From Gemmatimonadota bacterium (GTDB taxonomy: Bacteria > Gemmatimonadota > Gemmatimonadetes > Longimicrobiales > Gaopeijiaceae): DNA of 64,000 nt. The position numbers and the translations under genes are program-made. This document shows positions 34,140-48,277 of this stretch, piece after piece. Location: assembly GCA_022560615.1 (NCBI GenBank), contig JADFSR010000012.1, positions 1 to 64,000 on the forward strand, read 5' to 3'. The notes below the pieces were generated by a model. The model did no database searches and had not been told where the DNA came from. It worked only from the letters and a program-made list of their open reading frames with translations. How positions within the stretch are numbered: the stretch's first letter is position 1; every line of letters starts with the position of its first letter.

Positions 34140-34172
34140 CGCGGGGTGGCCTTCGCGTGCCGTCGGACCGCG

Positions 34173-34325
34173 ATGAGCTTGCGCCGGATTGCGACCGGTC
34201 GGTTCATCGAGTACGCCGAGCCAACAGATCTCACGCGCTTCCACCTGTCACTGTTGCAGCGCATGGGGATGGAAATCGACCAGCTGGGGACGGCGTCGGC
34301 CCCGTTGGCCGAGCTGGGGGGCTGA
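34173..34325 (+). CDS. Small ORF, 50 codons, hypothetical or gene remnant
   Basis: An ATG at 34173 opens a frame reading SLRRIATGRFIEYAEPTDLTRF and HLSLLQRMGMEIDQLG before stopping at 34325. The residue mix looks like real protein rather than a shadow, but I do not recognise it, and the piece is too short for a full domain. It could be the tail of a decayed gene. No clear ribosome site is seen. Confidence 0.25.
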   Translation: MSLRRIATGRFIEYAEPTDLTRFHLSLLQRMGMEIDQLGTASAPLAELGG

Positions 34326-34379
34326 GGGCGCGGGGTCGTCGCCTGACGGGACGAATAAGAACGCCCACGTTTTCGCTCG

Positions 34380-34420
34380 GGCCAGTGCGAGGACTGTGGC
34401 CACGAGCGCCCGCTCCGCCG
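34380..34420 (+). pseudogene. Second, shorter IS91-type zinc-finger scrap
   Basis: At 34383-34420 the plus strand reads QCEDCGHERPLRR, repeating the CEDCGHER core of the scrap at 28329. At DNA level the 21 bases CGAGGACTG(C/T)GGCCACGAGCG are identical except for one base. Nothing else of a transposase remains. Confidence 0.4.
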
Positions 34421-34432
34421 TAACTTCCCCCC

Positions 34433-35365
34433 ATGGTCCGACCCGTATACTTGGACCTCCCCACCGGTGAGATCGCGCACCGGGCGGAAGAGGCCGTGGC
34501 CTCCCTCGCGGAATGCCGGCTGTGTCCCCGCGACTGCGCGGTCGACCGGCTGGCCGGGAAGTGGTCCGCCTGCAAGACGGGCCGTCACGCGGTGGTGAGC
34601 TCGGCGTTCGCGCACTTCGGCGAGGAAGACTGCCTGCGAGGATGGCACGGTTCCGGCACGATCTTCTTCGGCCACTGCAACCTGCGCTGTGTCTTCTGTC
34701 AGAACTTCGACATCAGCCAGGCCATACGACCGGGGCCGTCGGAGCCGGGCCTGGAGGCGGATCAGATCGCCACGCTCATGCTCATGCTGCAGGCGAAGGG
34801 CTGTCACAACATCAACTTCGTGACACCCGAGCACGTAGTGCCCCAGCTGCTCGAGGCCCTCGTGCCGGCGATCGAGATGGGGCTCCGCCTCCCGATCGTG
34901 TACAACACGTCCGCTTACGACAGCCTCGAGAGCCTCCGCTGGATGGACGGGATCGTCGACATCTACATGCCGGACTTCAAGCTGTGGTCAGCCGCCGCCG
35001 CCAAACGATACCTGATGGCTGAGGATTACCCCGAGGCCGCCCGAGCCGCGCTCCTCGAGATGCACGGACAGGTGGGGCGGCTCGTCTGCGACGAGCGTGG
35101 GCTGGCCACCCGGGGCGTGCTGGTGCGACACCTGGTGATGCCAGGCCTCCTGGACGAGACCAGGGCGTGTCTCGAGTGGTTGGCCGAGCAGTTGGGACCC
35201 GGCACGTACGTGAACGTGATGGACCAGTACCGTCCGGCGGGGAAGGTGAGCGAGGGACGCTTCGAGGAGATCGGTCGAGCCGTGACGAGCGAGGAGTTTG
35301 CCGAGGCTCGGCGCTACGCGCAGTCGCTGGGGCTACGCTTGGACGAGCGTTGGGCGGTTGCATGA
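34433..35365 (+). CDS. Radical SAM protein, PflA-like (COG1313 type)
   Basis: The 310-residue protein contains the radical SAM motif CNLRCVFC (CxxxCxxC, about residues 83-90) preceded by a Cys-rich N-terminal segment, ECRLCPRDCAVDRLAGKWSACKTG, typical of COG1313 proteins described as uncharacterised pyruvate-formate-lyase activating-enzyme homologues. GCHNINFVTPEHVVPQ and LPIVYNTSAYDSLESLRWMDGIVDIYMPDFK are further family motifs, and the C-terminal part has VNVMDQYRP. It generates a 5'-deoxyadenosyl radical; the target is unknown. It overlaps the next gene by eight bases. It is cytoplasmic. Confidence 0.87.
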   Translation: MVRPVYLDLPTGEIAHRAEEAVASLAECRLCPRDCAVDRLAGKWSACKTGRHAVVSSAFAHFGEEDCLRGWHGSGTIFFGHCNLRCVFCQNFDISQAIRPGPSEPGLEADQIATLMLMLQAKGCHNINFVTPEHVVPQLLEALVPAIEMGLRLPIVYNTSAYDSLESLRWMDGIVDIYMPDFKLWSAAAAKRYLMAEDYPEAARAALLEMHGQVGRLVCDERGLATRGVLVRHLVMPGLLDETRACLEWLAEQLGPGTYVNVMDQYRPAGKVSEGRFEEIGRAVTSEEFAEARRYAQSLGLRLDERWAVA

Positions 35366-36218
35366 GACGAAGCGCGCCAGGTTGAGAGATCTGCTCCGTA
35401 CGCCGGAGGTCACGGTCGTCCCGGAGGCCTATACCGTGTTTACGGCCAGGCTCGCCGAGCTCAACGGCTTCGATGCGATCTACGTCGGTGGCAACATGAT
35501 CGCCGGGATGCACCTGGGGATCGAGGACTGGGGGCTCGTCGACCTCACGGAGCTCGTAGAGATTGGCGGACGGATCGCGAGGGGCGTGTCGGTGCCGGCG
35601 ATCGTCGATGCCGACCAGGGTGGTGAGACCGCCCTCAACGTGTACCGTAGTGTCGGGGCGTACGAGCGGGCCGGCATTGCGGGGCTGCACATCGAGGACA
35701 CCCGCAACCCGAAGCACATGGGTCAGGGTAGGAGCGAGCTCATGCCGCTCCAAGAGATGCTCGTGCGGATTTCGGCTGCCGTCGAGGGTCGGTCGGACCC
35801 GGACTTCGTCGTCATTGCCCGGTCCGATTCCCTGATTCTGGGCCCCAATCGGGGTGACGCTGCCGAGGCGATCCGTCGCGGGACCGCCTTCGCCGAGGCT
35901 GGGGCCGACGCTTTCTTCTGCGTCGGGATGCGGAGCGATCAGGTCGCGCAGATCGCCGCCAACGTGCCGATTCCCCTCATCGCGCTGAACATCCCTGTGG
36001 GAGACGTGCGCGACACCGGCCTGCGGATGGACATCCAAGGGGTGCAGGTTTACCAGGCAGCTGCGAAGCTCTACGAGACGATGATTCTGGAGCTCAAGGA
36101 CGAGGGGCAGTTCGGGCGCGGACCCGACCGCCGCCTAGCGCCGGAGACCGTGGCTCAAATCATGGGTACGCCTGCGTACCGGGAGCTCGCTGAACGATGG
36201 ATGGAGCTACGAGGGTAA
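35358..36218 (+). CDS. Isocitrate lyase / PEP mutase superfamily protein
   Basis: The best start is TTG 35358 (HETKRARLRDLL), where homology to this superfamily begins; it overlaps the radical SAM stop codon. The 286-residue protein shows the conserved FDAIYVGG, the metal motif VDADQGGE (equivalent to the DxDxG motif), GLHIEDTRNPKHMG and VVIARSDSL. The Cys of the KKCGH loop of true lyases is absent (NPKHMG here), which favours a carboxyvinyl-phosphonate mutase / oxaloacetase-like or decarboxylase activity over methylisocitrate lyase. Substrate not determinable. Confidence 0.85.
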   Translation: MHETKRARLRDLLRTPEVTVVPEAYTVFTARLAELNGFDAIYVGGNMIAGMHLGIEDWGLVDLTELVEIGGRIARGVSVPAIVDADQGGETALNVYRSVGAYERAGIAGLHIEDTRNPKHMGQGRSELMPLQEMLVRISAAVEGRSDPDFVVIARSDSLILGPNRGDAAEAIRRGTAFAEAGADAFFCVGMRSDQVAQIAANVPIPLIALNIPVGDVRDTGLRMDIQGVQVYQAAAKLYETMILELKDEGQFGRGPDRRLAPETVAQIMGTPAYRELAERWMELRG

Positions 36219-36219
36219 G

Positions 36220-36957
36220 CTACCCGCCCGCACCGCCGGGCGGTCCGGCGGGTCGCTGATACCGCAAATCGAACTCGACGCTCCGCACGCCGGGTATGGC
36301 GCGGACGACAGCGCCGAGGCTTTGCTGAACCGTCCCGAAGCCGGGGGGCGTGCGGCGACCTCCGCACTCCTCGCAGACGACCGAGCCGGTCAGGGTCACG
36401 ACCCCAGCGCTGACCGCGACGGTGATCGAGTCGGCGGGGACGTCGGACGCGCGCGCGATAGCCGCCTCGACCCGCTCCTGTAGCACGTCGTCCGGCGGAG
36501 CCTCGGGCACGTCGGACGCGCAGGCACCGAGGGCTGTGGCGGCGCCCAAGCAGGCCACGAGAGCGAGATGGATCCCGGGTGCGCTCCTCATCGACCGCCG
36601 ACTCGAGTCCTGAAACTCCACGCGTCCCCCGCCGCGCCGAAAGACGTTGATCCGCGCCTCGACCTCCTGCCGGAAGGCCCCACCGGTGAGCCAGTCACGG
36701 TCGAGCACCCGGAGCACGTCTGTGCTCGACAGCTCCCGCTCCAACTCCGCAAAGAGCTCGGTGGTTGTGGGCATCACGATCTCCGTCGGTGGCTCGCCGT
36801 CCCACGACTGCGGGTCCGTGTCGACTTCGTCCTGCTCCTGAGCGAGGCCGGTGCCCGACCGGGCATCCGCATAGCGCATGTAGAGACGCTCACACGACAA
36901 CTCGAGGACGCGTTCTCTGCCGCGCGTCCTGAGCTGGAGAAAGTCTCGTCGATTCAT
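36220..36957 (-). CDS. Two-part protein: conserved hypothetical fused in frame to a BON-domain lipoprotein
   Basis: Reading from ATG 36957, residues 1-115 are NRRDFLQLRTRGRERVLELSCERLYMRYADA... and VLRVLDRDWLTGGAFRQEVEARINVFRRGGGRVEFQ, a compact domain I cannot name. Without a stop the frame continues into an internal Met (36591) followed by a lipoprotein signal LVACLGAATALGAC and a BON domain (EAAIARASDVPADSITVAVSAGVVTLTGSV...). BON domains bind phospholipids and occur on periplasmic lipoproteins. Either translation starts again at 36591, giving two proteins, or this is a fusion with a buried signal. Two genes sharing one frame is more plausible. The gene follows the Mo-enzyme FAD subunit on the same strand. 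Confidence 0.6.
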   Translation of the reverse strand: MNRRDFLQLRTRGRERVLELSCERLYMRYADARSGTGLAQEQDEVDTDPQSWDGEPPTEIVMPTTTELFAELERELSSTDVLRVLDRDWLTGGAFRQEVEARINVFRRGGGRVEFQDSSRRSMRSAPGIHLALVACLGAATALGACASDVPEAPPDDVLQERVEAAIARASDVPADSITVAVSAGVVTLTGSVVCEECGGRRTPPGFGTVQQSLGAVVRAIPGVRSVEFDLRYQRPAGPPGGAGG

Positions 36958-36971
36958 GCTACCACGGGCTG

Positions 36972-37982
36972 CTAGGCGGACGTGGCGAGTGACAGGACTG
37001 TCTGCTCCACCACTTGTCGAGTCAGAGGGAGCTTGTATGCGTTCTTCGACATGGCCCTCGCTCCTGCCACGGCAGCCGTCCCCACCTCGCGAGCGAGCTC
37101 CGGCGTGACGCGGCTGCCCGCCAGCAGCCTCTCTGCCTCCGGGACGCGCCACGGAATGGGAGCCACGCCGCCCAGCACAATCCTCGCGCCCTGGCAGACG
37201 TCGCCGTCCATCTCCAGCACGACGGCGGCACTCACCAACGCGTGCGTCCACGCCTCGCGATCCATCACCTTGTGAAACGTGCTGCGCACGCCAGCTCCGG
37301 GTGCGGGAAGCTCGACAGACGCGAGTACCTCGTCGTCCCCGAGCACGTTCTCGTGTTCTGCGTCCTGGCGCGGAAGCACGAAGAAGTCCGCTCCCGACAG
37401 CGTACGCTCACCCTCGGGCCCTACGATCCGGAAGCTCGCGTCGAGCGCGACGAGTGCAGGCGCTACGTCCGAGGGATGAACGATGAAGCTCGGTCCGCCG
37501 CCGAAGATCGCGTGGAGCTGGTTCTCGCCGCGCACCGAGAAGCACACGCTGCCGCCCGCCTTGTAGCACGTGAATCCGTTGCGATAGTACCAGCACCAGG
37601 GTCGCTGACACACGTTTCCGGCCAAGGTGCCGGCCTTGCGGATCTGGGGAGTCGCGACGCTTTCGGCGGCTTCGGCCAACACGCTGAATTGGTCACGAAC
37701 GAGCGCATGCCCGCTGAGCGCGTCGAGCGTGATCATCCCGCCTACGGTCACTCCGTCCTGCCCCCTCGACGTCACCTGATCGAGCCCGTCTACGGTCTTG
37801 AGGTTCACGAGCACGTCCGGCAGGTCGGATCCCGGCCGATTCACGACCCTGTCCTTCATGAGCTGAAGCAGATCGGTGCCGCCCGCTGCGAAGGACACCG
37901 ATTGGCCGCCCTCGAGCGCCTGCCGCGCCAGTGTGACCGCTTCTTCCAGGCTTCGGGCATTCTGGTTGGCAAAGGCTTTCAT
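36972..37982 (-). CDS. FAD-binding subunit of a PaoABC-like molybdenum aldehyde oxidoreductase
   Basis: This 336-residue protein belongs to the xanthine-dehydrogenase FAD subunit family (FAAGGTDLLQLMKD, VTVGGMITLDAL, TLAGNVCQRP). It carries an insertion with four Cys (C125, C130, C139, C147) and GENQLHAIFGGGPSF, as in E. coli PaoB (YagS) and 4-hydroxybenzoyl-CoA reductase, where the extra Cys bind a [4Fe-4S] cluster. Start ATG 37982 overlaps the large-subunit stop by four bases. It passes electrons between the FeS small subunit and an acceptor. The PaoABC assignment rests on the Cys insert and the exported small subunit. Confidence 0.88.
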   Translation of the reverse strand: MKAFANQNARSLEEAVTLARQALEGGQSVSFAAGGTDLLQLMKDRVVNRPGSDLPDVLVNLKTVDGLDQVTSRGQDGVTVGGMITLDALSGHALVRDQFSVLAEAAESVATPQIRKAGTLAGNVCQRPWCWYYRNGFTCYKAGGSVCFSVRGENQLHAIFGGGPSFIVHPSDVAPALVALDASFRIVGPEGERTLSGADFFVLPRQDAEHENVLGDDEVLASVELPAPGAGVRSTFHKVMDREAWTHALVSAAVVLEMDGDVCQGARIVLGGVAPIPWRVPEAERLLAGSRVTPELAREVGTAAVAGARAMSKNAYKLPLTRQVVEQTVLSLATSA

Positions 37983-40150
37983 GAGAGCGCTCCCAGAATC
38001 TTGTCCCTCGTGATGGGCAGGTCTTTCATCCGGTGCCCGATGGCGTTGAAGATCGCGTTGGCCACCGCGGCCGGGCCCGGGATGATGCCCGCCTCGCCGA
38101 CCGTCTTCGCGCCGTAAGGCCCGAAGCCGTCGTCGGTCTCGATGAACGTGACCTCGATTTCCGGCGCATCCAGATGTGTCAGGTGCCGCGCGCCGTAGTA
38201 CCCCGCCGTGAGCGGGTGCCCGTTGCGAGCGTCGTACAGGAGATCCTCGTGCAAGGCCTGTCCGACCCCCTGCAACGCCGCGCCGCGGATCTGGTCCCTG
38301 GCGGGAAGCGGATTGAGAATGCGTCCGGACTCGTGGACCGCCACGTATTTCGTGATCCGCACGTGGCCGAGCTGAACATTCACTTCCACCTCCACGAAGT
38401 GCGCGCCGAAGCACATGCGCCGCCTCCCCTGCGTGCTCGGGGTCGGCGTCGCCGATGCGATCAACACGTCGGCACGCCGTGGCATCCCCGCCTCGGCGAT
38501 CTGGGCCTTGAGATCCTGAGCGGCCTGGACGACGGCGTAGCCTGTCTGGGTCGTGGTCCGGCTCCCCGACTCGCCCACTGAATACGGGCAGCGATCGGTA
38601 TCGCCCCAGACGACCTCCACCTGCGACAACGGCACACCCAGCTCCTCGGCGGCGATCATCGCCATCGTCGTCTTGGCCCCGGGGCCGATGTCCGTGACGC
38701 CGACGAACAGCGTGTACCGCTGCTCGGAGTCCACGCGCAGAATCGCACTGCTCGGGCCGACCCCGGACCGGAACATCATGAACGACATGCCCGCCCCGCG
38801 CTTGACGGGTCCCGGGTCCGAGCCGGGTTCGGAACGCCGCCGGCTCTGCCAGTCGAAGAGTTCCACACCTCGGTCGATGCACTCTTCCATCGAGTAGTTC
38901 GTGAAGCGCACGTCCTCGGTCGGCCGCAGCATGTTCTGCTTCGCGAAGTCCACCGGGTCCATGCCCAGCTTATACGCGATGTCGTCCATCATCGACTGCA
39001 TCGCGAAGTACCCCTGCGGATCCGAGGGCGCCCGGAAGTTGCCCGACACCATCCGGTTGGTGTGCACCGGGTAGATCACCCGCTCGCTATTGGGGCACGC
39101 GTATACCTCGATCCCGCTGATGCCGCCCGATCGTCTCAGGTACGGACCCATGCCACTGTAGCCGTGCAGCTGAATCGCCGTCACCGTCCCGTCCTGCTTC
39201 ACGCCCACCTTGTAGTCCTGAACGGTGTGCCAACGCCCGTGCGTACCCAGCCAGTCATCCTTCCTGGTCAACTCGAGCAACACCGGGGCGTCCGCCTCTT
39301 TCGCCAGCATCGCGGCGATCAGGTCGAAGTAGTAGCTGCCGTTCTTGTCGCCGAAGCCACCGCCCATGTACTTGCAGATGATCTGTACTTGATGGTCTTC
39401 GAGACCCAGATCTCGCGCGTTGTCGTGACGGCAGTTCGAGATGCCCTGGGTCGGCGTGTAGATCGTGACCTTGTCGCCCTGCCACTGCGCCAGCGCGCAG
39501 CGGGGCTCCATCTGGGCGTCCTGCACGAAAGCAGTCGTATACCGATCTTCGAACAGCTGGTCGGCGGCCCGGAAGCCCGCGTCGATGTCTCCGACCCGCC
39601 GCACCATCGGTCTCGCCTGGTTCTGATAGTCCAGCGCGAGGTTGCCCTCGGGCCAGATGGGAGGAGCCCCCGGCTCCAGCGCCTGCTCGGGATCGATCAC
39701 GAAAGGCATCTCTTCGTAGTCGATGTCGATGAGCTGGAGCGCCTCCTCGGCCACGTGCCGATCGACCGCGGCTACCGCCGCCACCGGCTGGCCAACGTAG
39801 CGGACCGGGTTGTCGAACATGTACCGAACGTGCTCGGTGATGTCCTTGGCGGCGTCGCTGTACTGTCGCCCCCCGGCGATCGAGCCCGAGCTGTAAATCA
39901 GCTGGTGTGTCTCGTGCGTGATGACCGCACGTACGCCCGGCAGCGTCTCGGCCCTCGAGACGTCGAGGCTGCGGATGCGCGCGTGAGGATGCGGACTCCG
40001 CAGGACTCGCGCGTACAGCATGCCCGGGAGCCGGACGTCGCCCGTATAGGTGGCCTTTCCCGTCACCCGCTCGTAGGCGTCGATGCGCGGGACGTTGTGC
40101 CCGACTGTGTTCATCGGCCCGACGGGTCCCCTCGCTTGCTCCTGGCTCAT
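37979..40150 (-). CDS. Molybdenum-cofactor large subunit, xanthine dehydrogenase family (PaoC-like)
   Basis: The 723-residue catalytic subunit has the standard N-terminal aldehyde-oxidase hammerhead domain (VTGKATYTGDVRLPGMLYARVLRSP) and the molybdopterin-binding domain with MGGGFGDKNG and GPGAKTTMAMIAAEELG. The glutamate loop (VGEAGIIPGPAAVANAI, near the end) provides the catalytic Glu. It should oxidise an aldehyde or aromatic aldehyde in the periplasm. ATG 40150 overlaps the small-subunit stop by four bases and the gene ends by overlapping the FAD subunit, so the three are coupled in the order small, large, FAD. Confidence 0.93.
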   Translation of the reverse strand: MSQEQARGPVGPMNTVGHNVPRIDAYERVTGKATYTGDVRLPGMLYARVLRSPHPHARIRSLDVSRAETLPGVRAVITHETHQLIYSSGSIAGGRQYSDAAKDITEHVRYMFDNPVRYVGQPVAAVAAVDRHVAEEALQLIDIDYEEMPFVIDPEQALEPGAPPIWPEGNLALDYQNQARPMVRRVGDIDAGFRAADQLFEDRYTTAFVQDAQMEPRCALAQWQGDKVTIYTPTQGISNCRHDNARDLGLEDHQVQIICKYMGGGFGDKNGSYYFDLIAAMLAKEADAPVLLELTRKDDWLGTHGRWHTVQDYKVGVKQDGTVTAIQLHGYSGMGPYLRRSGGISGIEVYACPNSERVIYPVHTNRMVSGNFRAPSDPQGYFAMQSMMDDIAYKLGMDPVDFAKQNMLRPTEDVRFTNYSMEECIDRGVELFDWQSRRRSEPGSDPGPVKRGAGMSFMMFRSGVGPSSAILRVDSEQRYTLFVGVTDIGPGAKTTMAMIAAEELGVPLSQVEVVWGDTDRCPYSVGESGSRTTTQTGYAVVQAAQDLKAQIAEAGMPRRADVLIASATPTPSTQGRRRMCFGAHFVEVEVNVQLGHVRITKYVAVHESGRILNPLPARDQIRGAALQGVGQALHEDLLYDARNGHPLTAGYYGARHLTHLDAPEIEVTFIETDDGFGPYGAKTVGEAGIIPGPAAVANAIFNAIGHRMKDLPITRDKILGALS

Positions 40151-40794
40151 GGCGCGCCTCCCGATCCCGCGGTCGATCCCGCGGTCTGGGCAGTCGCCAA
40201 CACCGCCTCCACGATCGCGTTGTAGTTCGAACAGCGGCAGAGATTGCCGACCAACGCCTCGCGCACCTCGTCCGCGGCCGGGCGGGAGTTCCGCTCCAGC
40301 AACGCGGTCGCCGTCATCAGTTGACCGGGCGTGCAGAAGCCACACTGGGCCGCGTCGTGATCGATGAAGGCCTGTTGCAACGGCGTGAGCTCGCCGTCCC
40401 GCTCGAGCCCCTCCACGGTCTCGACGGCGCGACCGTCCGCCCACACCGCGAGCGTGCTGCACGAATAGATCGGCTCACCATCCAGCAGCACCGTGCACGC
40501 GCCGCATTCGCCGCGATTGCAGCCGATCTTGGAACCCGTGAGCTCGATGTGGTCCCGGAGCAGCTCGTTGAGCGTCCAGCGATCTTCGACCTCGACCCGG
40601 TGTTCGGTGCCGTTGACGGTAAGGCGGATCAGAGTCCGAGGGACGGCCTCGGCTTCCTGTCGGGCGACGGTCGCGCTCCGGGGCTCCGCTGCGGTTAGCT
40701 TGGGCGCAGCGCCGGCGACGACCAGCACGGCCCCGGTGCCTTCCAGGAAATCGCGCCTCGTGAGACCCCCGCTTTTTGGCTCGTTCTTTTTCAT
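40147..40794 (-). CDS. TAT-exported [2Fe-2S] small subunit of the molybdenum aldehyde oxidoreductase
   Basis: The 215-residue protein begins with a twin-arginine signal (LTRRDFLEGTGAVLVVAGAA). A plant-type [2Fe-2S] ferredoxin domain follows, with Cys 92, 97, 100 and 112 (GCNRGECGACTVLLDGEPIYSC). The second [2Fe-2S] domain has C151, C154, C186 and C188 (CGFCTPGQ, LCRCSN). This two-cluster layout is the small subunit of the xanthine dehydrogenase family. The signal shows that the complex is exported folded. As in PaoA of E. coli, only this subunit has the signal and carries the others across. It is the first gene of the operon. Confidence 0.94.
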   Translation of the reverse strand: MKKNEPKSGGLTRRDFLEGTGAVLVVAGAAPKLTAAEPRSATVARQEAEAVPRTLIRLTVNGTEHRVEVEDRWTLNELLRDHIELTGSKIGCNRGECGACTVLLDGEPIYSCSTLAVWADGRAVETVEGLERDGELTPLQQAFIDHDAAQCGFCTPGQLMTATALLERNSRPAADEVREALVGNLCRCSNYNAIVEAVLATAQTAGSTAGSGGAP

Positions 40795-40851
40795 CTGGTC
40801 TACCGCTCCGTTCTCTCCAAGACCGCCTGCATCACCCCAGGACCGCCTGCA

Positions 40852-42921
40852 TCACCGCGACGGCAGGCTGAGTGCCACTAGCTGCCCCGGTGTCTGCAGG
40901 ACGATGCGCTGCCGACCCTCGTTCATGTAGGACATCATGCCGTACATGCCAAGGCCCGGAGTCTCGAGACCGCCGAGACGCTCGCCCGTCGCCTTGTCCA
41001 CCGCGAAGAGGAAAGGCGTCTCTCCGTCGTCGCCGATCGCCGTGTGGAGCAGCATATCTGGCGTGACCATCATCGCTGAGTGGCCCAAGTTCCCGGTCGC
41101 TGGGATATCGAGCCCCTGCAGCGCCGGGTGATCCTGGATGTACTTCGGTGTGCCCCCGTTGGGGATCCACCACAGGTGCTCCCCGGTGTTGAGGTCGATC
41201 GCGGTGATTCTACTGTACGGCGGCTTCTCCAATGGCAGACGCTGGGGACCCGGCACGCCGCCCGGCGTACCCCTACCGACGGCGAAGTCCGCGATCGTCG
41301 TTCCCGTCGGCCGCTCGAGCATTGCGTCCCGCTCCACGCCCGGGACCACGAGCCGCCAGCCGCAGTTCGTGCGAGAGATGGTGTAGATGATCCCGGTCTC
41401 GGGGTCGGCCGCCGGGGGGCCCGTGATGTTGGTTCCGCCGAGCTCACCCGGGCACCAGATCGATCCGTTCGATCCCTCGGTATTCGTACTGTGGATGGGC
41501 GGGTTGAAGAGCGGACCGAGCTCGTAATCCGCGATGATCTCGAGCGCTTCCTGTCGCAGCTCCGGCGTGAAGTCGATCAGGTCGTCGACCGTGAAGCCCT
41601 GCTTGTCGTACGGCGCGGGTTTGGTCGGGAATGGTTGAGTGGGCGATAGCTGCTCGCCGGGAATCTTCGACTGGGGCACCGGGCGCTCTTCGATGGGCCA
41701 GATGGGCTCGCCCGTCTCCCGATTCAATGCATAGAGGAATGCCTGCTTCGTGGCCTGGAACACCCCCGGTATTCTCTTCCCGTCCACCGTGACGTCCATG
41801 AGGATCGGGGCTGTGGAGGTGTCGTAGTTCCAGACGTCGTGATGGACCATCTGGAAATGCCACACGCGCTCGCCGGTCTCGACATCGAGTGCGATGAGGC
41901 TCGTTCCGAACAGGCCGTCCCCCGGGCGGAAGCCGCCATAGAAGTCGATCGTGGGCGGGTTCGTAGGGATGTAGACGATTCCGCGCTCGGGGTCCGCCGC
42001 CATCGGTGCCCACGACGAGACGTCCCCCGTCCAATTCCACGCGTCGCTCTCCCACGTCTCGTGGCCGAACTCGCCCGGCCGCGGAATCACGTGGAACTTC
42101 CACTTGTGCGCGCCCGTTCTGGCGTCGTAGCCCAGGATGTCACCGGGCACGTTCTGGATGCGCGTCTGGTTGTAGCCCTGCTCGGCCGAGTTGCCCACCA
42201 CGACGGTCCCGTTCACGACGATCGGCGGTGAAGAGCTGGTGATGTACCCGAGCGCCAGCGGGATCCCGTAATACGGGTCGTACGGCTCGTCCCACTCCTT
42301 CCAAGGACCCCAGTCGGCGAGGAGGTCGGGCAGGAGATCGACCACGCCGGTCTTTGGAAAGCCATCCAGCGGCACGGGCGTGCCCCAGTTGTCGAGAGGC
42401 CTGCCCGTCTCGGCATCGAGGGCATAGAGGAAGAACGCTGGGGTCGTAACGTAGACGACTCCCCTACCGTCGACCTCCGCGTATGCGATCCCTTTCCCCC
42501 AAGGCGCCCGCATGGAGTACTCCCAACGGAAGGTGTTGGGCAGTCGGAACGTCCACAGCGTCTCTCCCGTGGAGGGGTCGATCCGCACCACGTGACGGCG
42601 CGCCCCGGCCACCGTGAACAGCTTCCCGTCCGCGTAAACGGGCGTGGAGCGCGGGGGCCCAGGCCCGAAGCTGCCGCTCCTCCAGATCCACTCGATCTCG
42701 AGGTCGGCGAAGTTCGACGCGTCGATCTGATCCAGAGGCGTGGATCGCGTGTGTCCGGCATCCCCGCCGATGTAGCGCCATGCTTCGGGGTCGGTCCCGG
42801 GCCGCTCATTGACGTGCTGGGAAACGCCTGGTGCGGGTGGGACGAGCAGGACGCCGAGGGCTACCGTGGCCGATATCCTCCAGCTGCGGGACACGCCGCC
42901 TGCGTCGGGTTTCGCGTTCAT
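40852..42921 (-). CDS. Exported PQQ-dependent dehydrogenase, glucose-dehydrogenase-like
   Basis: The 689-residue product (ATG 42921 after GGAGG) has a signal peptide ([19 protein letters not shown]) and a PQQ propeller: [60 protein letters not shown] and a closing [11 protein letters not shown]. The HHDVW-type segment and a large middle insertion (about 480-560) match soluble or membrane-detached relatives of quinoprotein glucose dehydrogenase. There is no N-terminal membrane anchor. It lies 57 bases downstream of the Mo enzyme operon start on the same strand and may share the respiratory chain with it. PQQ must come from elsewhere in the genome. Confidence 0.87.
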
Positions 42922-43135
42922 CAGAACCTCCGGCCGTCGATGAAGATGGCGCGCAAGATGCCGTGCGAAGCGGGACGACGGCAAGGAGGATGCCGAGTGT
43001 GTGAGCTGGTTGCGGGTCCCGAGAGGGGATCCACAGAGAACGCTCAGATTTTCGGGGTCATGCAGCCCATCCACACCGCGAAGCCACCCAGACCGCCGCG
43101 GAGTGCTTGCCGCGTCCCCCCCCTTGCGCCGGCAC

Positions 43136-43183
43136 GTGAGTGATATTATCTGATAATGCCTGATAATACATGAGTATCACTTA
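43136..43183. promoter_or_regulatory. Cluster of 10-bp TGATAAT-type repeats, probable operator
   Basis: Three units spaced exactly ten bases apart begin at 43140 (GTGATATTAT), 43150 (CTGATAATGC) and 43160 (CTGATAATAC). An outer dyad GTGATA ... TATCAC (43140-43145 and 43175-43180) encloses them. The segment is AT-rich in a GC-rich setting and ends nine bases before the start of the HTH gene. One-turn spacing points to a protein bound on one face of the helix. Confidence 0.6.
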
Positions 43184-43191
43184 CGGATTCG

Positions 43192-43821
43192 ATGCCTGAT
43201 CTAGTCCTCAACGCGACAGCAAACGCGATCGCGTATGCGAAGAACCGCACGGATCCCGAGGTCACGCCGGACGACCTGCTGCTGGGCGCGCTTCAGGCGG
43301 TTTCGAAGCTGGGGGTCGCGAGCTTCGGCCCCATCACGGTCGATCTGTCGACGCATCCCGCCGTCCCGAACCTGAACGGCGGGCGGGATGTGCGTCCCCG
43401 GTACTCGAGTGCCGCGGTGGACGTCTTCGAGCAGGCTTCCGCGATCGCGAGGACGGACACCGAGTCGCGGGTCCGCCTGGTACACATTCTGGCCGCGCTG
43501 GGAGTTTCGGACGGGGGTCTCATTGGAGAGTTGAGGGATCGTTACGATTTCGATGACGCCGACTGGCGGGCTGCGCTCGTGGAGTGGGACAGCCGACGGG
43601 AGCCTCCCGCCGGAGCAGGTCCGGCGAAGGGGGCCCTGCTCAGCGTCGACGAGGCGGCCGAGGCTCTGGGCGTCCATCAGCAGACGATCCGGGGCTACAT
43701 CCGGACGGGCAAGCTGGCGGCCTTCCGCATCGCGGGGGAGAGGGCGATCCGGGTTTACGCATCGGATCTGTACGGCTTGCTCGAGCCGCTGGAGCCGAGC
43801 TCGAACGATGTCGGGGACTAA
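43192..43821 (+). CDS. Regulator with Clp_N-like sensor domain and excisionase-type helix-turn-helix
   Basis: The 209-residue protein has two parts. Residues 1-135 resemble the double Clp N-terminal repeat (AIAYAKNRTDPEVTPDDLLLGALQAVSKLG and YSSAAVDVFEQASAIAR..., HILAALGVSDGGLIGEL). Residues 148-205 are an excisionase/MerR-like winged helix (LLSVDEAAEALGVHQQTIRGYIRTGKLAAFRIAGERAIRVY). A Clp_N domain attached to a DNA-binding domain suggests a regulator that senses unfolded protein or an adaptor. It is followed 29 bases later by a DUF4242 gene, and is preceded by TGATAAT repeats. The Clp_N assignment is my pattern match, not a search result. Confidence 0.65.
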   Translation: MPDLVLNATANAIAYAKNRTDPEVTPDDLLLGALQAVSKLGVASFGPITVDLSTHPAVPNLNGGRDVRPRYSSAAVDVFEQASAIARTDTESRVRLVHILAALGVSDGGLIGELRDRYDFDDADWRAALVEWDSRREPPAGAGPAKGALLSVDEAAEALGVHQQTIRGYIRTGKLAAFRIAGERAIRVYASDLYGLLEPLEPSSNDVGD

Positions 43822-43850
43822 TGCCCCGATGCACTTCAAGGAGGTGTGAG

Positions 43851-44123
43851 ATGACCATGTTCGTCGTGAAGCGCACGCTACCCGGGATCACCCCCGATGG
43901 CGTCCACGGTGCGGGGGTTCGCGTGAAGTCCTGCGCCGCGGAGATGCGGAGTGAGGGACTCGATGTGCGCTGGGTCAGGAGCTTCTTCCTGCCCGAGTCG
44001 GAGCAGACGCATTGCTACTTCGAAGCCGCTGACCTCTCCGCGGTGAAGGACCTCAACGAGCGGGCGCAGGTACCCTTCCTCGAGATTTCCGAGGTCGTGG
44101 AGATGACTCCGGACTCAGTGTAG
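43851..44123 (+). CDS. DUF4242 small protein
   Basis: The 90-residue product is a DUF4242 domain: MFVVKRTLPGITPDGVHGAG, then DVRWVRSFFLPESEQTHCYFEA and a short C-terminal helix with VPFLEISEVVEM. The family folds as a ferredoxin-like dimer; a related Streptomyces protein binds nickel. An almost ideal ribosome site (AAGGAGGTG) precedes ATG 43851 and indicates high expression. It probably shares a transcript with the preceding HTH regulator. A nickel role is possible but not shown: the single Cys/His cluster (THCYF) is the only metal-like feature. Confidence 0.88.
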   Translation: MTMFVVKRTLPGITPDGVHGAGVRVKSCAAEMRSEGLDVRWVRSFFLPESEQTHCYFEAADLSAVKDLNERAQVPFLEISEVVEMTPDSV

Positions 44124-44258
44124 GAGTCGTGCCCGGCTGGACCTCGGCTCCAAGCTCGAATCAGGTTGGCGTCGAGGTCCGCTGGGTCTGTTCGATGTCG
44201 GGCCTTCCGGTAGTGTCGAAGGGCCTCGAGAAAGAGCGACTCGCCTCTAGCTCTAGCT

Positions 44259-45392
44259 CTAGCGGCGGGCGTGCCAGGCGGCCAGTACCTCGGCTTCGCG
44301 CTCGGCGGAGATGCCTGCCCGCAGGTTCGCCTGACGCTCAGGTGATCGGGAGAAGTGGTACTCGAGCGTCTCGCGGGCGGTGACCGCGAGGGGCCGGAAC
44401 GTCAGCCCGGCCTCGATCTCCGGCGTGAGGTCGAATCTGGCGAAGCCCTCGAATCCCTGGGTGGGGGGCCTCCAGACGGGCATGTGGGAGTACGGGCGGA
44501 TGCCGATCTCGGTGAGGAAGTCGAGGTTCACCCAGGTGAAGGTTGTCTCTGCGGTGGTCACGCTCCGGATCCCGTAGAGGAGCTCGGCCATCGGACGCGG
44601 CGTCCTGGGACCTATCCCGTTGAACACTCCGGTCGTGCCGTCCTCCGCCATGCGGATCATCCACTCGGTCAGGTCGCGCACGTCGATGATCTGCACGGGA
44701 TCGGACGGATCACCCGGGGCCAGCACCTCGCCGCCCCGATGGATGCGCACCGGCCAGTAGGTGAAGCGGTCCGACTCGTCGTCGGGGCCGATAATGAGCC
44801 CGGGCCGCACGATGTTCGCACGTCCCACGAAGATCCGCTGGGCCTGTCTCTCCGAGAGCGCTTTCGCGAGGCCGTAGGGCAACCGCTCGGCATCCCGGCT
44901 GACACCGGCGGTCTCATAGGTATACGTCGGGGCGTCTGCGGTCATCGGGACGCGGCTCGTATCGACGTAGGCCGAGCGCGACGAAACGTAAAAATACCGG
45001 TCCACGGAGTCCTTCAAGAACTCGGCAGACAGGCGCACCCACTCGGGGTTGGACCGAGAGTTGTCGATTACGGCGTCCCAAGTCCGTCCTGCGAGGGAGT
45101 CGAGCTGGCCGTTCCGGTCTCCCACCAGGCGTTCCACCCTGGGGAAGAGGTGCGTGTTGGTGCGTCCACGATTGAAGAGGGTGACGGTGTGGCCTCGTTC
45201 CAGGGCGTAGCGAACCTGGTAGGGCCCGATGAAGCCGGTGCCGCCGAGGATGAGGATCCTGATCGCCCTCCTTGCCGGCGGAGCCGGGCGCGGAACGTGC
45301 CAGGCCGCGAGTGCCTGGGGGGTGATTCCCAGCGCCAGGGTACCGGCGGTGGCCGCTGTGAGTCTCAGGAAGTCCCTGCGATCGGTCGACAT
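44259..45392 (-). CDS. TAT-exported NAD-dependent epimerase/dehydratase-like protein
   Basis: The product of about 377 residues has a twin-arginine signal (TDRRDFLRLTAATAGTLALG), then an extended short-chain dehydrogenase with the cofactor motif ILILGGTGFIGPYQVRYALERGHTV and FNRGRTN, later AVIDNS and YFYVSSRSAY. The usual YxxxK follows as YGLAKALSE. Exported NAD(P)-binding proteins are odd, because the periplasm lacks these nucleotides, unless the cofactor is bound before export as in Gfo/Idh TAT enzymes. ATG 45392 has GGGGAGCGG before it; an upstream GTG overlapping the S9 stop (GTGA) is an alternative. It is downstream of the S9 peptidase gene. Confidence 0.83.
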   Translation of the reverse strand: MSTDRRDFLRLTAATAGTLALGITPQALAAWHVPRPAPPARRAIRILILGGTGFIGPYQVRYALERGHTVTLFNRGRTNTHLFPRVERLVGDRNGQLDSLAGRTWDAVIDNSRSNPEWVRLSAEFLKDSVDRYFYVSSRSAYVDTSRVPMTADAPTYTYETAGVSRDAERLPYGLAKALSERQAQRIFVGRANIVRPGLIIGPDDESDRFTYWPVRIHRGGEVLAPGDPSDPVQIIDVRDLTEWMIRMAEDGTTGVFNGIGPRTPRPMAELLYGIRSVTTAETTFTWVNLDFLTEIGIRPYSHMPVWRPPTQGFEGFARFDLTPEIEAGLTFRPLAVTARETLEYHFSRSPERQANLRAGISAEREAEVLAAWHARR

Positions 45393-45409
45393 GGTTCCGC
45401 TCCCCGCAC

Positions 45410-48277
45410 TCACCGGCGATCCTCGCCTTGCTCGGAGATCACGCGCTTCCGCGTAAGTCCCAGCCCAAGCTCCTTGCCCTTCAGGATGGCCGGCACGCCT
45501 TCCTCCAACCAGACGGGCGCTGGCGCGTCCATGAGGTAGTGGTCGAAGAACTGCTGCATGCGCATCGCCCAGTCACGCTGGTTCTGGGACTTTTGTAGCC
45601 CGTGCTCCTCACCGTTGTAGTTGAGCATCCACGCCGGCTGACCGAGTCGCCTGAGCGCCACGAAGAGCTCGATGCCCTGCTCCCACGGTACCGCCGTGTC
45701 CTGGTCGTTGTGCATCATGAGCAGCGGGGTCTTGATCTTGTCCGCCGTGAAGATCGGCGAGTTCTCGATGAAGCGGAGCGGCTGCTCCCACAGCGACCCG
45801 CCGATCCGGCTCTGCGTGCGCTCGTATTGGAACATGCGGCTCATCCCCGTACCCCAGCGGATGCCGCCGTACGCGCTGATCATGTTGGCGACGGGAGCTC
45901 CCGCTTCGGCAGCGGCGAACAGGTCTGTACGCGTCACCATGTACGCGATCTGGTACCCACCCCAGGAGTGCCCCTGCACGCCGATCTTGTCGCGATCGAC
46001 AAAGCCCTGATCGAGCAGTCGCAAGACACCGGGCACGACTGCGTCGAGGGCGCTCTCCCCGGGGTACCCGATTGCGTACGGGATGTCCGGCACGAAGAGC
46101 AGATAACCGCGGCTGACATAGAAACTGCGGTTGATCGAGGACCTACCGGCCGCGGGCACCGTGTACGAGTGGAGCCCGTCCGAGTTGCGTTCGTAAAAGT
46201 ACACCATCATCGGATACTTCTTCGACGCGTCGAAGTCCTCGGGCTTGTACAGGATGCCCTGCAGCGGGATGCCGTCGTTCGAGGTCCACTCTACGAGCTC
46301 GGCGGTGCCCCACAGGTACTCGTCTTGTTGAGGATTGGCGTCGGTTACTTTGCGCGCGTCTGCGAAGTCGGCATCGGCCACCCAGATGTCCGGAAATTCC
46401 TCGAAGGTCGATCGCTCATACAGGATCACGTCCGCGGACTCGGCCTTGCGGATAGCCGCGAAGCGCACGTCGTCCATCACGAGCTTCTGAGGCACTCCGT
46501 TGCCGTCGAAGCGGTCCCGGTAGACGCCACTCGCCTTCGTATACAGATGAAAGGAGGTCAGGTACACGTCCGAGTCGGTCGGCACGTAGGGATCGTCCGG
46601 GTCCAGGTCGAGCACGCGGAAGCGGATGTCGGACTGCCGGCCCACACCTTCGGTCAGGTTGCGAGGCGCGGTACTGCCTGTCGGGTCGATCGACCATGCG
46701 TCGAAGCGATCGTAAACGATGAACGCCTCGTCCCCTCGAGTCCAACCCGCGGATCCGTACGAGCGCAGCGCGTCCGGATGGTCGTCGAGGATATCGTGGA
46801 CCGGTACGCCGAGATTCTCCGTGAGGTTGGTCCGCTCGCCGCTCTCGACGTCGACCGCGAACCACGCCGTCTCGAAGCCGTCCCACCAAGTCACGTACTT
46901 GCCACCGGGAGAAAGGCTCGCGGAGCCACGCACCATCTCCGCAATCCGCCGCGTTCCACCATCCTCGACGTCGACCAAGTACAAGTCCGAGTAGCGTCCA
47001 TCCCAGGAAACGAGCTGGCGGTACTCGAGGTTGCTCGTGCCGAGCGCGACAGCTCCGTCGCCGCGGTCGGCGACTGAGACGGAGGGAACGTCCTCGGTGG
47101 CGAGCTGAACGACGCGACCGCTCGGCAGGTCCAGCACCGCCCGGTAGGTGCGATCTTCCTCCTGAGACCGCTGCAGTAACTGCATCGGCTGCAGGTACGG
47201 GTCCTTCCAGTTCCAGATGTCGACAACGACCCGTTCGTCCTCTGGAGTCTCGTCCTCGGGTTCGGGCTCGGGCGCGTGCGTCGTGCCGAAGAAGACCCGC
47301 CGGCCGGACTCTGAGAACGAGAGGCTGCCGTTGTCGCTCGGAGCCCACCCGCTGGGCAGCCCCGCCGTACCCAGGCTCGCTCGGGCCGTAGCCTCGCCGT
47401 CCGTTGCCACGTAGAGTGCGAAATCCGGAGCCTCGTCCTCGCGGTCGTCCCGGTCGGTCAGGAAGGCTACGGTGCCGTCATCGGAGACCGCGAGCTCGAC
47501 GTAGCGCCCCTCGCCCGTGCTCACAGCCTCGGAGGCTCCGCTCCCATCCACGCGGAAGACCCCGTCTGAGGCGCCGTCGTCGCCCGAGGCCGTGTAGAAG
47601 AGAGTCGAACCGTCGGCTGCGAACGCGTACTCCACCGCGTGCTCGAAGCGCCACTCGCGTCCCGAGTTCAGGGCTCGAGCGACAAGTGCCGTGCCATCGT
47701 CGACGCGGGGCACCTCCGCATCCTCCTCTTCGTCTCCCTCCTGCGCGGCCGGCTCCTCGGAAGACTCTTCCTCTTCGTCGTCGTCAGCCTCGAGCAGGTA
47801 GGCCATCCAGCTGCCGTCGTCTTCCGGAAGCCGGAACGAGGTCACGTTCGCCATCCGGGTGACGGATAGCTTCGCCAGGTCGACGACTACGAGGGAGTCG
47901 TGAGGCTGGGCGTCTCCGTCATCCTCTCGGTCGCCCTTGGCCTCCCGGGCCGCGTCAACCGCTTCTTCCATCGGCGCGACCAGGGCAATCAGGTACCGCG
48001 CATCGCTCGTGAACGCCGGCCGCGCTCCGCGCTCGATCGTGAGGGAGCGATCATCGTTCAAGCTCTGCACGATCATCGTCGCGTCCCCGTCTCCGGGCAC
48101 GAGTCGGTAGACGAGCCAGCGACCGTCGGCGGAGACGATGTCGTCCTGGATGCGATTCCACCGGTCGAAATCCGCGTGGTCCAGGGGTCGCTTCTCTTGA
48201 GCGGCAGCGGGGGTGGCCACCGGAGCGGCAACGAGTGTCACGAGAAGCGTGAGCAGGGCGGAGCGTAGGGTCTTCAT
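45410..48277 (-). CDS. Secreted S9-family (prolyl oligopeptidase type) peptidase
   Basis: The 955-residue protein has a signal peptide (LTLLVTLVAAPVATPAAAQ), a long beta-propeller domain (about 40-680) and a C-terminal alpha/beta hydrolase. The nucleophile is in GVQGHSWGGYQ, the Asp in MMHNDQDTAVPW and the His in NGEEHGL. An acidic insert of Glu/Asp runs (DDDEEEESSEEP...) lies in the propeller at about residues 170-200. Such enzymes cleave short peptides outside the cytoplasm. A weak ribosome site precedes ATG 48277. It is probably co-transcribed with the downstream TAT protein gene. Confidence 0.93.
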   Translation of the reverse strand: MKTLRSALLTLLVTLVAAPVATPAAAQEKRPLDHADFDRWNRIQDDIVSADGRWLVYRLVPGDGDATMIVQSLNDDRSLTIERGARPAFTSDARYLIALVAPMEEAVDAAREAKGDREDDGDAQPHDSLVVVDLAKLSVTRMANVTSFRLPEDDGSWMAYLLEADDDEEEESSEEPAAQEGDEEEDAEVPRVDDGTALVARALNSGREWRFEHAVEYAFAADGSTLFYTASGDDGASDGVFRVDGSGASEAVSTGEGRYVELAVSDDGTVAFLTDRDDREDEAPDFALYVATDGEATARASLGTAGLPSGWAPSDNGSLSFSESGRRVFFGTTHAPEPEPEDETPEDERVVVDIWNWKDPYLQPMQLLQRSQEEDRTYRAVLDLPSGRVVQLATEDVPSVSVADRGDGAVALGTSNLEYRQLVSWDGRYSDLYLVDVEDGGTRRIAEMVRGSASLSPGGKYVTWWDGFETAWFAVDVESGERTNLTENLGVPVHDILDDHPDALRSYGSAGWTRGDEAFIVYDRFDAWSIDPTGSTAPRNLTEGVGRQSDIRFRVLDLDPDDPYVPTDSDVYLTSFHLYTKASGVYRDRFDGNGVPQKLVMDDVRFAAIRKAESADVILYERSTFEEFPDIWVADADFADARKVTDANPQQDEYLWGTAELVEWTSNDGIPLQGILYKPEDFDASKKYPMMVYFYERNSDGLHSYTVPAAGRSSINRSFYVSRGYLLFVPDIPYAIGYPGESALDAVVPGVLRLLDQGFVDRDKIGVQGHSWGGYQIAYMVTRTDLFAAAEAGAPVANMISAYGGIRWGTGMSRMFQYERTQSRIGGSLWEQPLRFIENSPIFTADKIKTPLLMMHNDQDTAVPWEQGIELFVALRRLGQPAWMLNYNGEEHGLQKSQNQRDWAMRMQQFFDHYLMDAPAPVWLEEGVPAILKGKELGLGLTRKRVISEQGEDRR

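Follow-up and report, generated by a model that had tools for sequence, protein, structure and literature searches.

A regulator–DUF4242 gene pair behind phased 10-bp repeats that looks like an undescribed variant of a Clp N-domain stress sensor

Within a 64,000-nucleotide stretch of a Gemmatimonadota genome (the window), we describe a gene pair and an unusual control site with 10-base steps. Pair and control site recur in distant relatives, which makes the locus look like a genuine and so far undescribed form of a stress sensor of known type. The first gene (43192–43821, plus strand) encodes a 209-aa regulator in which a predicted Clp N-domain is followed by an HTH_17 domain, an architecture drawn from Pfam, profile searches and the predicted fold; the second (43851–44123, plus strand), which begins 29 nt after the regulator stop codon, encodes a 90-aa DUF4242/SCO4226-like protein. 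We lean towards an autoregulated two-gene operon, a reading that we hold to be somewhat probable, in which the regulator would act as a one-component repressor on the phased repeats, use its Clp N-domain as a sensor and control both itself and the DUF4242 gene. The initial annotation had proposed a stress-sensing circuit not yet described. “Circuit” is a fair reading, since the repeats, the Clp_N/HTH protein and the DUF4242 gene are conserved as a unit (five genomes in three families), but a Clp N-domain autorepressor is already known in the form of ClpC2; by analogy with ClpC2, a stress-sensing role is plausible. In the open-licence literature we found no paper on the combination of Clp_N with HTH_17, on a link of either to DUF4242 or on a DUF4242 regulator.

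The candidate operator consists of four 10-bp direct-repeat units (43141–43180, plus strand) that lie directly 5′ of the regulator gene in the sequence GTGAG TGATATTATC TGATAATGCC TGATAATACA TGAGTATCAC TTACG, the end of which is 6 bp from the ATG at 43192. The units start at 43141 (TGATATT), 43151 (TGATAAT), 43161 (TGATAAT) and 43171 (TGAGTAT), in steps of exactly 10 bp; the earlier description of three TGATAAT units at 10-base steps was therefore right in its spacing, but only two units read TGATAAT, one reads TGATATT and the fourth is degenerate. The repeat pattern found 0 matches in dinucleotide shuffles of the window. Within the 120 bp upstream of the regulator, the lag-10 self-match (18/25) ranked top among lags 5–30 (p = 0.001 against local shuffles; 0/2000 dinucleotide shuffles), and the value of 18 at the array was the maximum over the whole 64 kb. 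Furthermore, a genome-wide scan for the exact array doublet returned two pattern matches, both in the array and none elsewhere in the 4.5-Mb genome, while allowing one mismatch added one further genome site, the same as for a reversed-pattern control. An array private to one promoter in the genome points to autoregulation, and a regulon reading was dropped on account of this uniqueness.

The array is flanked by an outer dyad whose arms of 11 bp each, CGTGAGTGATA (43135–43145, plus strand) and TATCACTTACG (43175–43185, minus strand), are complementary at 10 of 11 positions and are spaced by 40 bp, equal to four turns; this element of the initial annotation was borne out. A symmetric dimer or tetramer could sit on such a dyad and loop or bridge the promoter, which would leave the internal repeats secondary or as promoter elements, and indeed GATAAT in the array agrees with TATAAT at 5/6 positions and so resembles a −10 box. 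Outer dyads of similar span are also present upstream of the homologues at L004 (p 0.01) and L006 (p 0.012) and, more weakly, at L007 (p 0.066), a cross-promoter test to be taken as suggestive only because the span was picked after viewing the window. At L003 and L005, however, no dyad of similar span was found, yet five of the six promoters keep the 10-bp period, and we consider binding by way of the dyad unlikely.

Conservation of the repeats, which the initial annotation had named as decisive, proved to be conservation of period: the 10-bp periodicity is kept, but the letters have drifted, and the promoter of L007, a truncated homologue, is without lag 10. The homologous promoters as a whole have diverged (38–57% over the best ungapped 60-mer). 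Summed over all six, lag 10 is nevertheless the strongest (86) and lag 20 the second (75), and with the window left out the lag-10 sum was reached in 0/5000 local shuffles (p = 0.003 for any lag of 6–30), although, taken one by one, the arrays of L003 and L006 are weak. Good hexamers of the form TTGACA-16/17-TATNNT are found at L005, L006 and L007, with the repeats overlying the −35/−10 hexamers at L005 and L006, and their presence in these three promoters favours repression.

The expectation of an excisionase-like HTH held. Residues 149–193 of the regulator (43636–43770, plus strand) match the winged-helix family HTH_17 (PF12728; E 1.3e-9, 38.6 bits, cut-off 27) and the excisionase family TIGR01764 (E 4.1e-9, 36.7 bits, cut-off 28.8), and the sole significant match of the regulator to the PDB by sequence is Gp37 (4j2n), the Pukovnik Xis (PMC11963761). 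HTH_17 is related to MerR, and MerR and MerR_1 appear as weak matches in all five family members, a kinship that would suit a regulator bending or remodelling a weak promoter with a poor −35 once ligand binds the Clp N-domain. No clear −35/−10 pair is present in the window promoter (the best is GTGATA-16-GATAAT), which makes activation of this MerR fashion possible, and both the window and L004 promoters are without a good pair overlapping the array. The AlphaFold2 (AF2) model of the regulator, on the other hand, contains no MerR coiled coil, and the hexamers at L005, L006 and L007 speak for repression; we therefore judge an activator to be quite unlikely and keep to autorepression.

The N-terminal part of the regulator was harder to place. 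Clp_N similarity in a profile search, on which the initial annotation had let its proposal stand or fall, was not obtained for the window regulator as a single sequence, which gives no Pfam match to PF02861 and does not reach the gathering score; the homologues, a profile of the family and the predicted fold nonetheless agree on this domain. Pfam Clp_N matches occur in four of five homologues, all sub-threshold (best E 0.0024), and the regulator-family profile matches ClpV and ClpC2 in the PDB. In the AF2 model (pLDDT 80, from a five-row alignment), residues 2–138 (43195–43605, plus strand) form two helical repeats and show the two-repeat, all-helical fold of Clp N-domains. Foldseek aligns the model with Clp N-domains at E 1.3e-5, the best superposition on ClpC N-domains has Z 14.3 over 123 residues (rmsd 3.2–3.3), and the 50 fold matches listed are Clp/Hsp100 N-domains or relatives (ClpT, a plastid Clp subunit). 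From the homologue matches, the profile matches and this modelled fold taken together, the domain is a diverged Clp unfoldase N-domain and not an adaptor; “Clp adaptor domain” was a misnomer, the N-domain of the unfoldase being the surface that adaptors and peptide antibiotics bind.

What this surface might recognize can be read in part from its alignment with known N-domains. In the profile alignment, Y71 and E80 of the regulator stand opposite F172 and E181 of ClpC2, which contact cyclomarin; no aromatic residue matches the N-terminal F96 of ClpC2, another cyclomarin contact, and valine 97, a valine in all five homologues, takes the place of the TEH glutamate in the second repeat of Clp N-domains. 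Given the missing F96 counterpart and V97, the ligands of ClpC1 and ClpC need not bind the regulator; a groove ligand is plausible from the aligned residues, though not necessarily the mycobacterial one. ClpC N-domains bind MecA, YjbA and phosphoarginine (PDB titles), and ClpC2 is also heat-induced (PMC10030653), both of which would fit a protein whose N-domain docks with ClpC or swaps adaptors or substrates with it, so that its level or DNA binding tracks protease load and not a small ligand. Against such coupling to proteolysis stands the same valine 97 in place of one of the two TEH glutamates in every homologue, and we regard it as improbable beside a ligand-sensing repressor.

Homologues were sought in 394 genomes of the class, together with order, family and phylum searches. 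Five near-complete members were recovered (the window, L003/L002, L004, L005 and L006) from three families (f1, f4, f5), and a sixth, L007, truncated by a contig end, lies in a fourth family (f6). Over the alignment, the other four near-complete regulators are 42–58% identical to the window protein. The next gene on the same strand encodes a 90-aa DUF4242 protein in 5/5 near-complete loci, and the other four of these partners, with 54–78% identity to that of the window, are better conserved than the regulators. The survey of the three-part arrangement that the initial annotation had called for thus returned the regulator with DUF4242 in five genomes and the upstream 10-bp period in five of six promoters. 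At E < 1e-50, the DUF4242 subfamily is confined to these same five genomes among 389, the next best match having an E of 4e-25. By virtue of this linkage and exclusive co-occurrence, the pair is a conserved unit whose distribution is patchy. We considered and dropped an origin from plasmids or viruses, with no relatives found in plasmids or viral contigs.

The single-sequence regulator search also matched ORFs of 875–956 aa. Judged by its own sequence in each case, L027 looks like a ClpB-type protein, L026 resembles a stand-alone Clp N-domain protein, and L024 and L025 look like other HTH proteins. The ORFs of the latter two (starts 1462 and 1507), from two congeneric genomes, have an HTH_17-like domain followed by a region of ~190 aa, a different HTH architecture, and are directly followed by a response-regulator-like gene.

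The downstream gene was assigned by Pfam, predicted fold and its linkage in all five loci. Its product matches PF14026 (E 4.8e-13, 49.5 bits, cut-off 28.5), and a strong Shine-Dalgarno sequence, AAGGAGGTG (43838–43846, plus strand), places a perfect AAGGAGG 6 nt before the ATG, in agreement with the strongly translated DUF4242 gene of the initial annotation. A second, divergent DUF4242/SCO4226-like gene lies elsewhere in the same genome (L028, 1468–1758, minus strand) and outscores the window copy for PF14026 (86 vs 48.8 bits).

Small size, a private operator and a patchy distribution would also suit a toxin–antitoxin-like operon, in which the HTH protein would be an antitoxin that represses its own operon and the small protein encoded after it the toxin, and the segment that holds the pair is absent from a sister genome. 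The model of the DUF4242 protein, however, has a ferredoxin-like fold that matches SCO4226 (4oi6, Z 12.0, vs 8.6 for the next row), no nuclease or toxin family was matched in Pfam or NCBIfam, and the more distant DUF4242 relatives that were found are mostly unlinked to such a regulator. Among the next DUF4242 matches, at L038–L045, a crude motif scan flagged no Clp_N-like or HTH-like neighbours; L038 and L039 are the two closest relatives among the unlinked loci. A toxin–antitoxin pair is accordingly very improbable. The absent segment spans ~10 kb (window 34140–44258); in its place G101, the sister genome, has ~8.7 kb of other DNA (L051, 2315–11055) between flanks that are 84–88% identical. 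With 44259–46573 at 88% identity in G101, the pair is at the edge of this variable segment. The segment also carries a xanthine-dehydrogenase-type gene (37979–40794, by sequence) and a PQQ-dehydrogenase gene (40852–43074), the latter with many 66–74% identical stretches in G101, a number that suggests a large expanded family.

The autorepressor filament that we propose draws on BldC-type head-to-tail binding and on the precedent of ClpC2 for sensing through a Clp N-domain. Briefly, the C-terminal HTH_17 domains of the regulator would occupy the four 10-bp repeats in a row along one helix face, head-to-tail as in BldC, and the bound protein would mask the promoter and keep operon transcription low. 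The ClpC-type N-domain would be the sensor, with a peptide-like molecule, a Clp adaptor or a Clp-directed toxin as the presumed ligand; ligand binding would cause the filament to fall apart and both genes to be expressed, the DUF4242 protein with its strong ribosome site being the probable output. A bolder version, which we put forward tentatively and hold to be rather doubtful, is that the Clp N-domain is a decoy receptor recognizing Clp-directed peptides or signals of proteostasis, governs how the excisionase-type HTH polymerizes on phased repeats and in this way switches on a dedicated DUF4242 protein, which would make this an undescribed family of one-component sensors and an independent reinvention, outside Actinobacteria, of the “sense and sponge” of ClpC2. 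If the proposal is true, the Clp N-domain has been joined to DNA binding at least two times, in mycobacteria and in the group of this genome, for sensing attack or load on the Clp protease. Ligands of Clp N-domains are of antibiotic interest, and natural receptors would be useful as probes. The mostly uncharacterized DUF4242 family would likewise gain a regulatory context, and filament operators of the BldC type a ligand-controlled example.

Three known systems frame this proposal. The DUF4242 partner resembles SCO4226 (PMC4186839) in its PF14026 family and predicted ferredoxin-like fold, but differs at the metal site: the Ni-1 ligands Asp43, Ser46 and His76 of SCO4226 (PMC4186839) fall opposite L47, S50 and S80 in a profile alignment, so that D43 and H76 are replaced. 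The window protein also scores 17.6 against the NCBIfam equivalog (cut-off 125). Nickel binding is thus not supported by its sequence, and nickel sensing by the partner was dropped as the default reading. Mycobacterial ClpC2 is a Clp N-domain protein that acts as a repressor at its own promoter until cyclomarin releases it; a four-helix dimerization domain precedes its C-terminal Clp N-domain, and its operator, the palindrome CGTCAAC-n5-GTTGACG, lies beside the start codon and overlaps the −35/−10 elements of its own promoter (PMC10030653). The regulator shares with it a Clp N-domain without AAA+ modules in a putative autorepressor and a candidate operator at its own promoter, and ClpC2 (8ad9) has the highest identity to the regulator (23%) among the Clp N-domain structures listed. 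Unlike in ClpC2, for which no HTH_17 is described, the domain order is reversed (Clp N-domain, then HTH_17), the candidate operator is made of phased direct repeats and not a palindrome, and a DUF4242 gene follows; read directly, the sequence upstream of 43192 does not contain the ClpC2 operator.

For the proposed mode of DNA binding, the nearest parallels are the HTH_17 proteins BldC, Pukovnik Xis and RdfS, which oligomerize head-to-tail (PMC11963761). BldC of Streptomyces spans four repeats, each protomer taking up one helical turn, and it reads DNA shape and tolerates sequence drift (PMC5859096). BldC consists of one small domain and has many targets, whereas the regulator carries a Clp N-domain before its HTH and its array is found only at its own promoter. 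With these three proteins it shares an HTH_17-type winged HTH and direct repeats about one turn apart in AT-rich, sequence-tolerant sites, a likeness seen here at the level of sequence, and a period that is kept while the letters are not matches shape reading of the BldC type.
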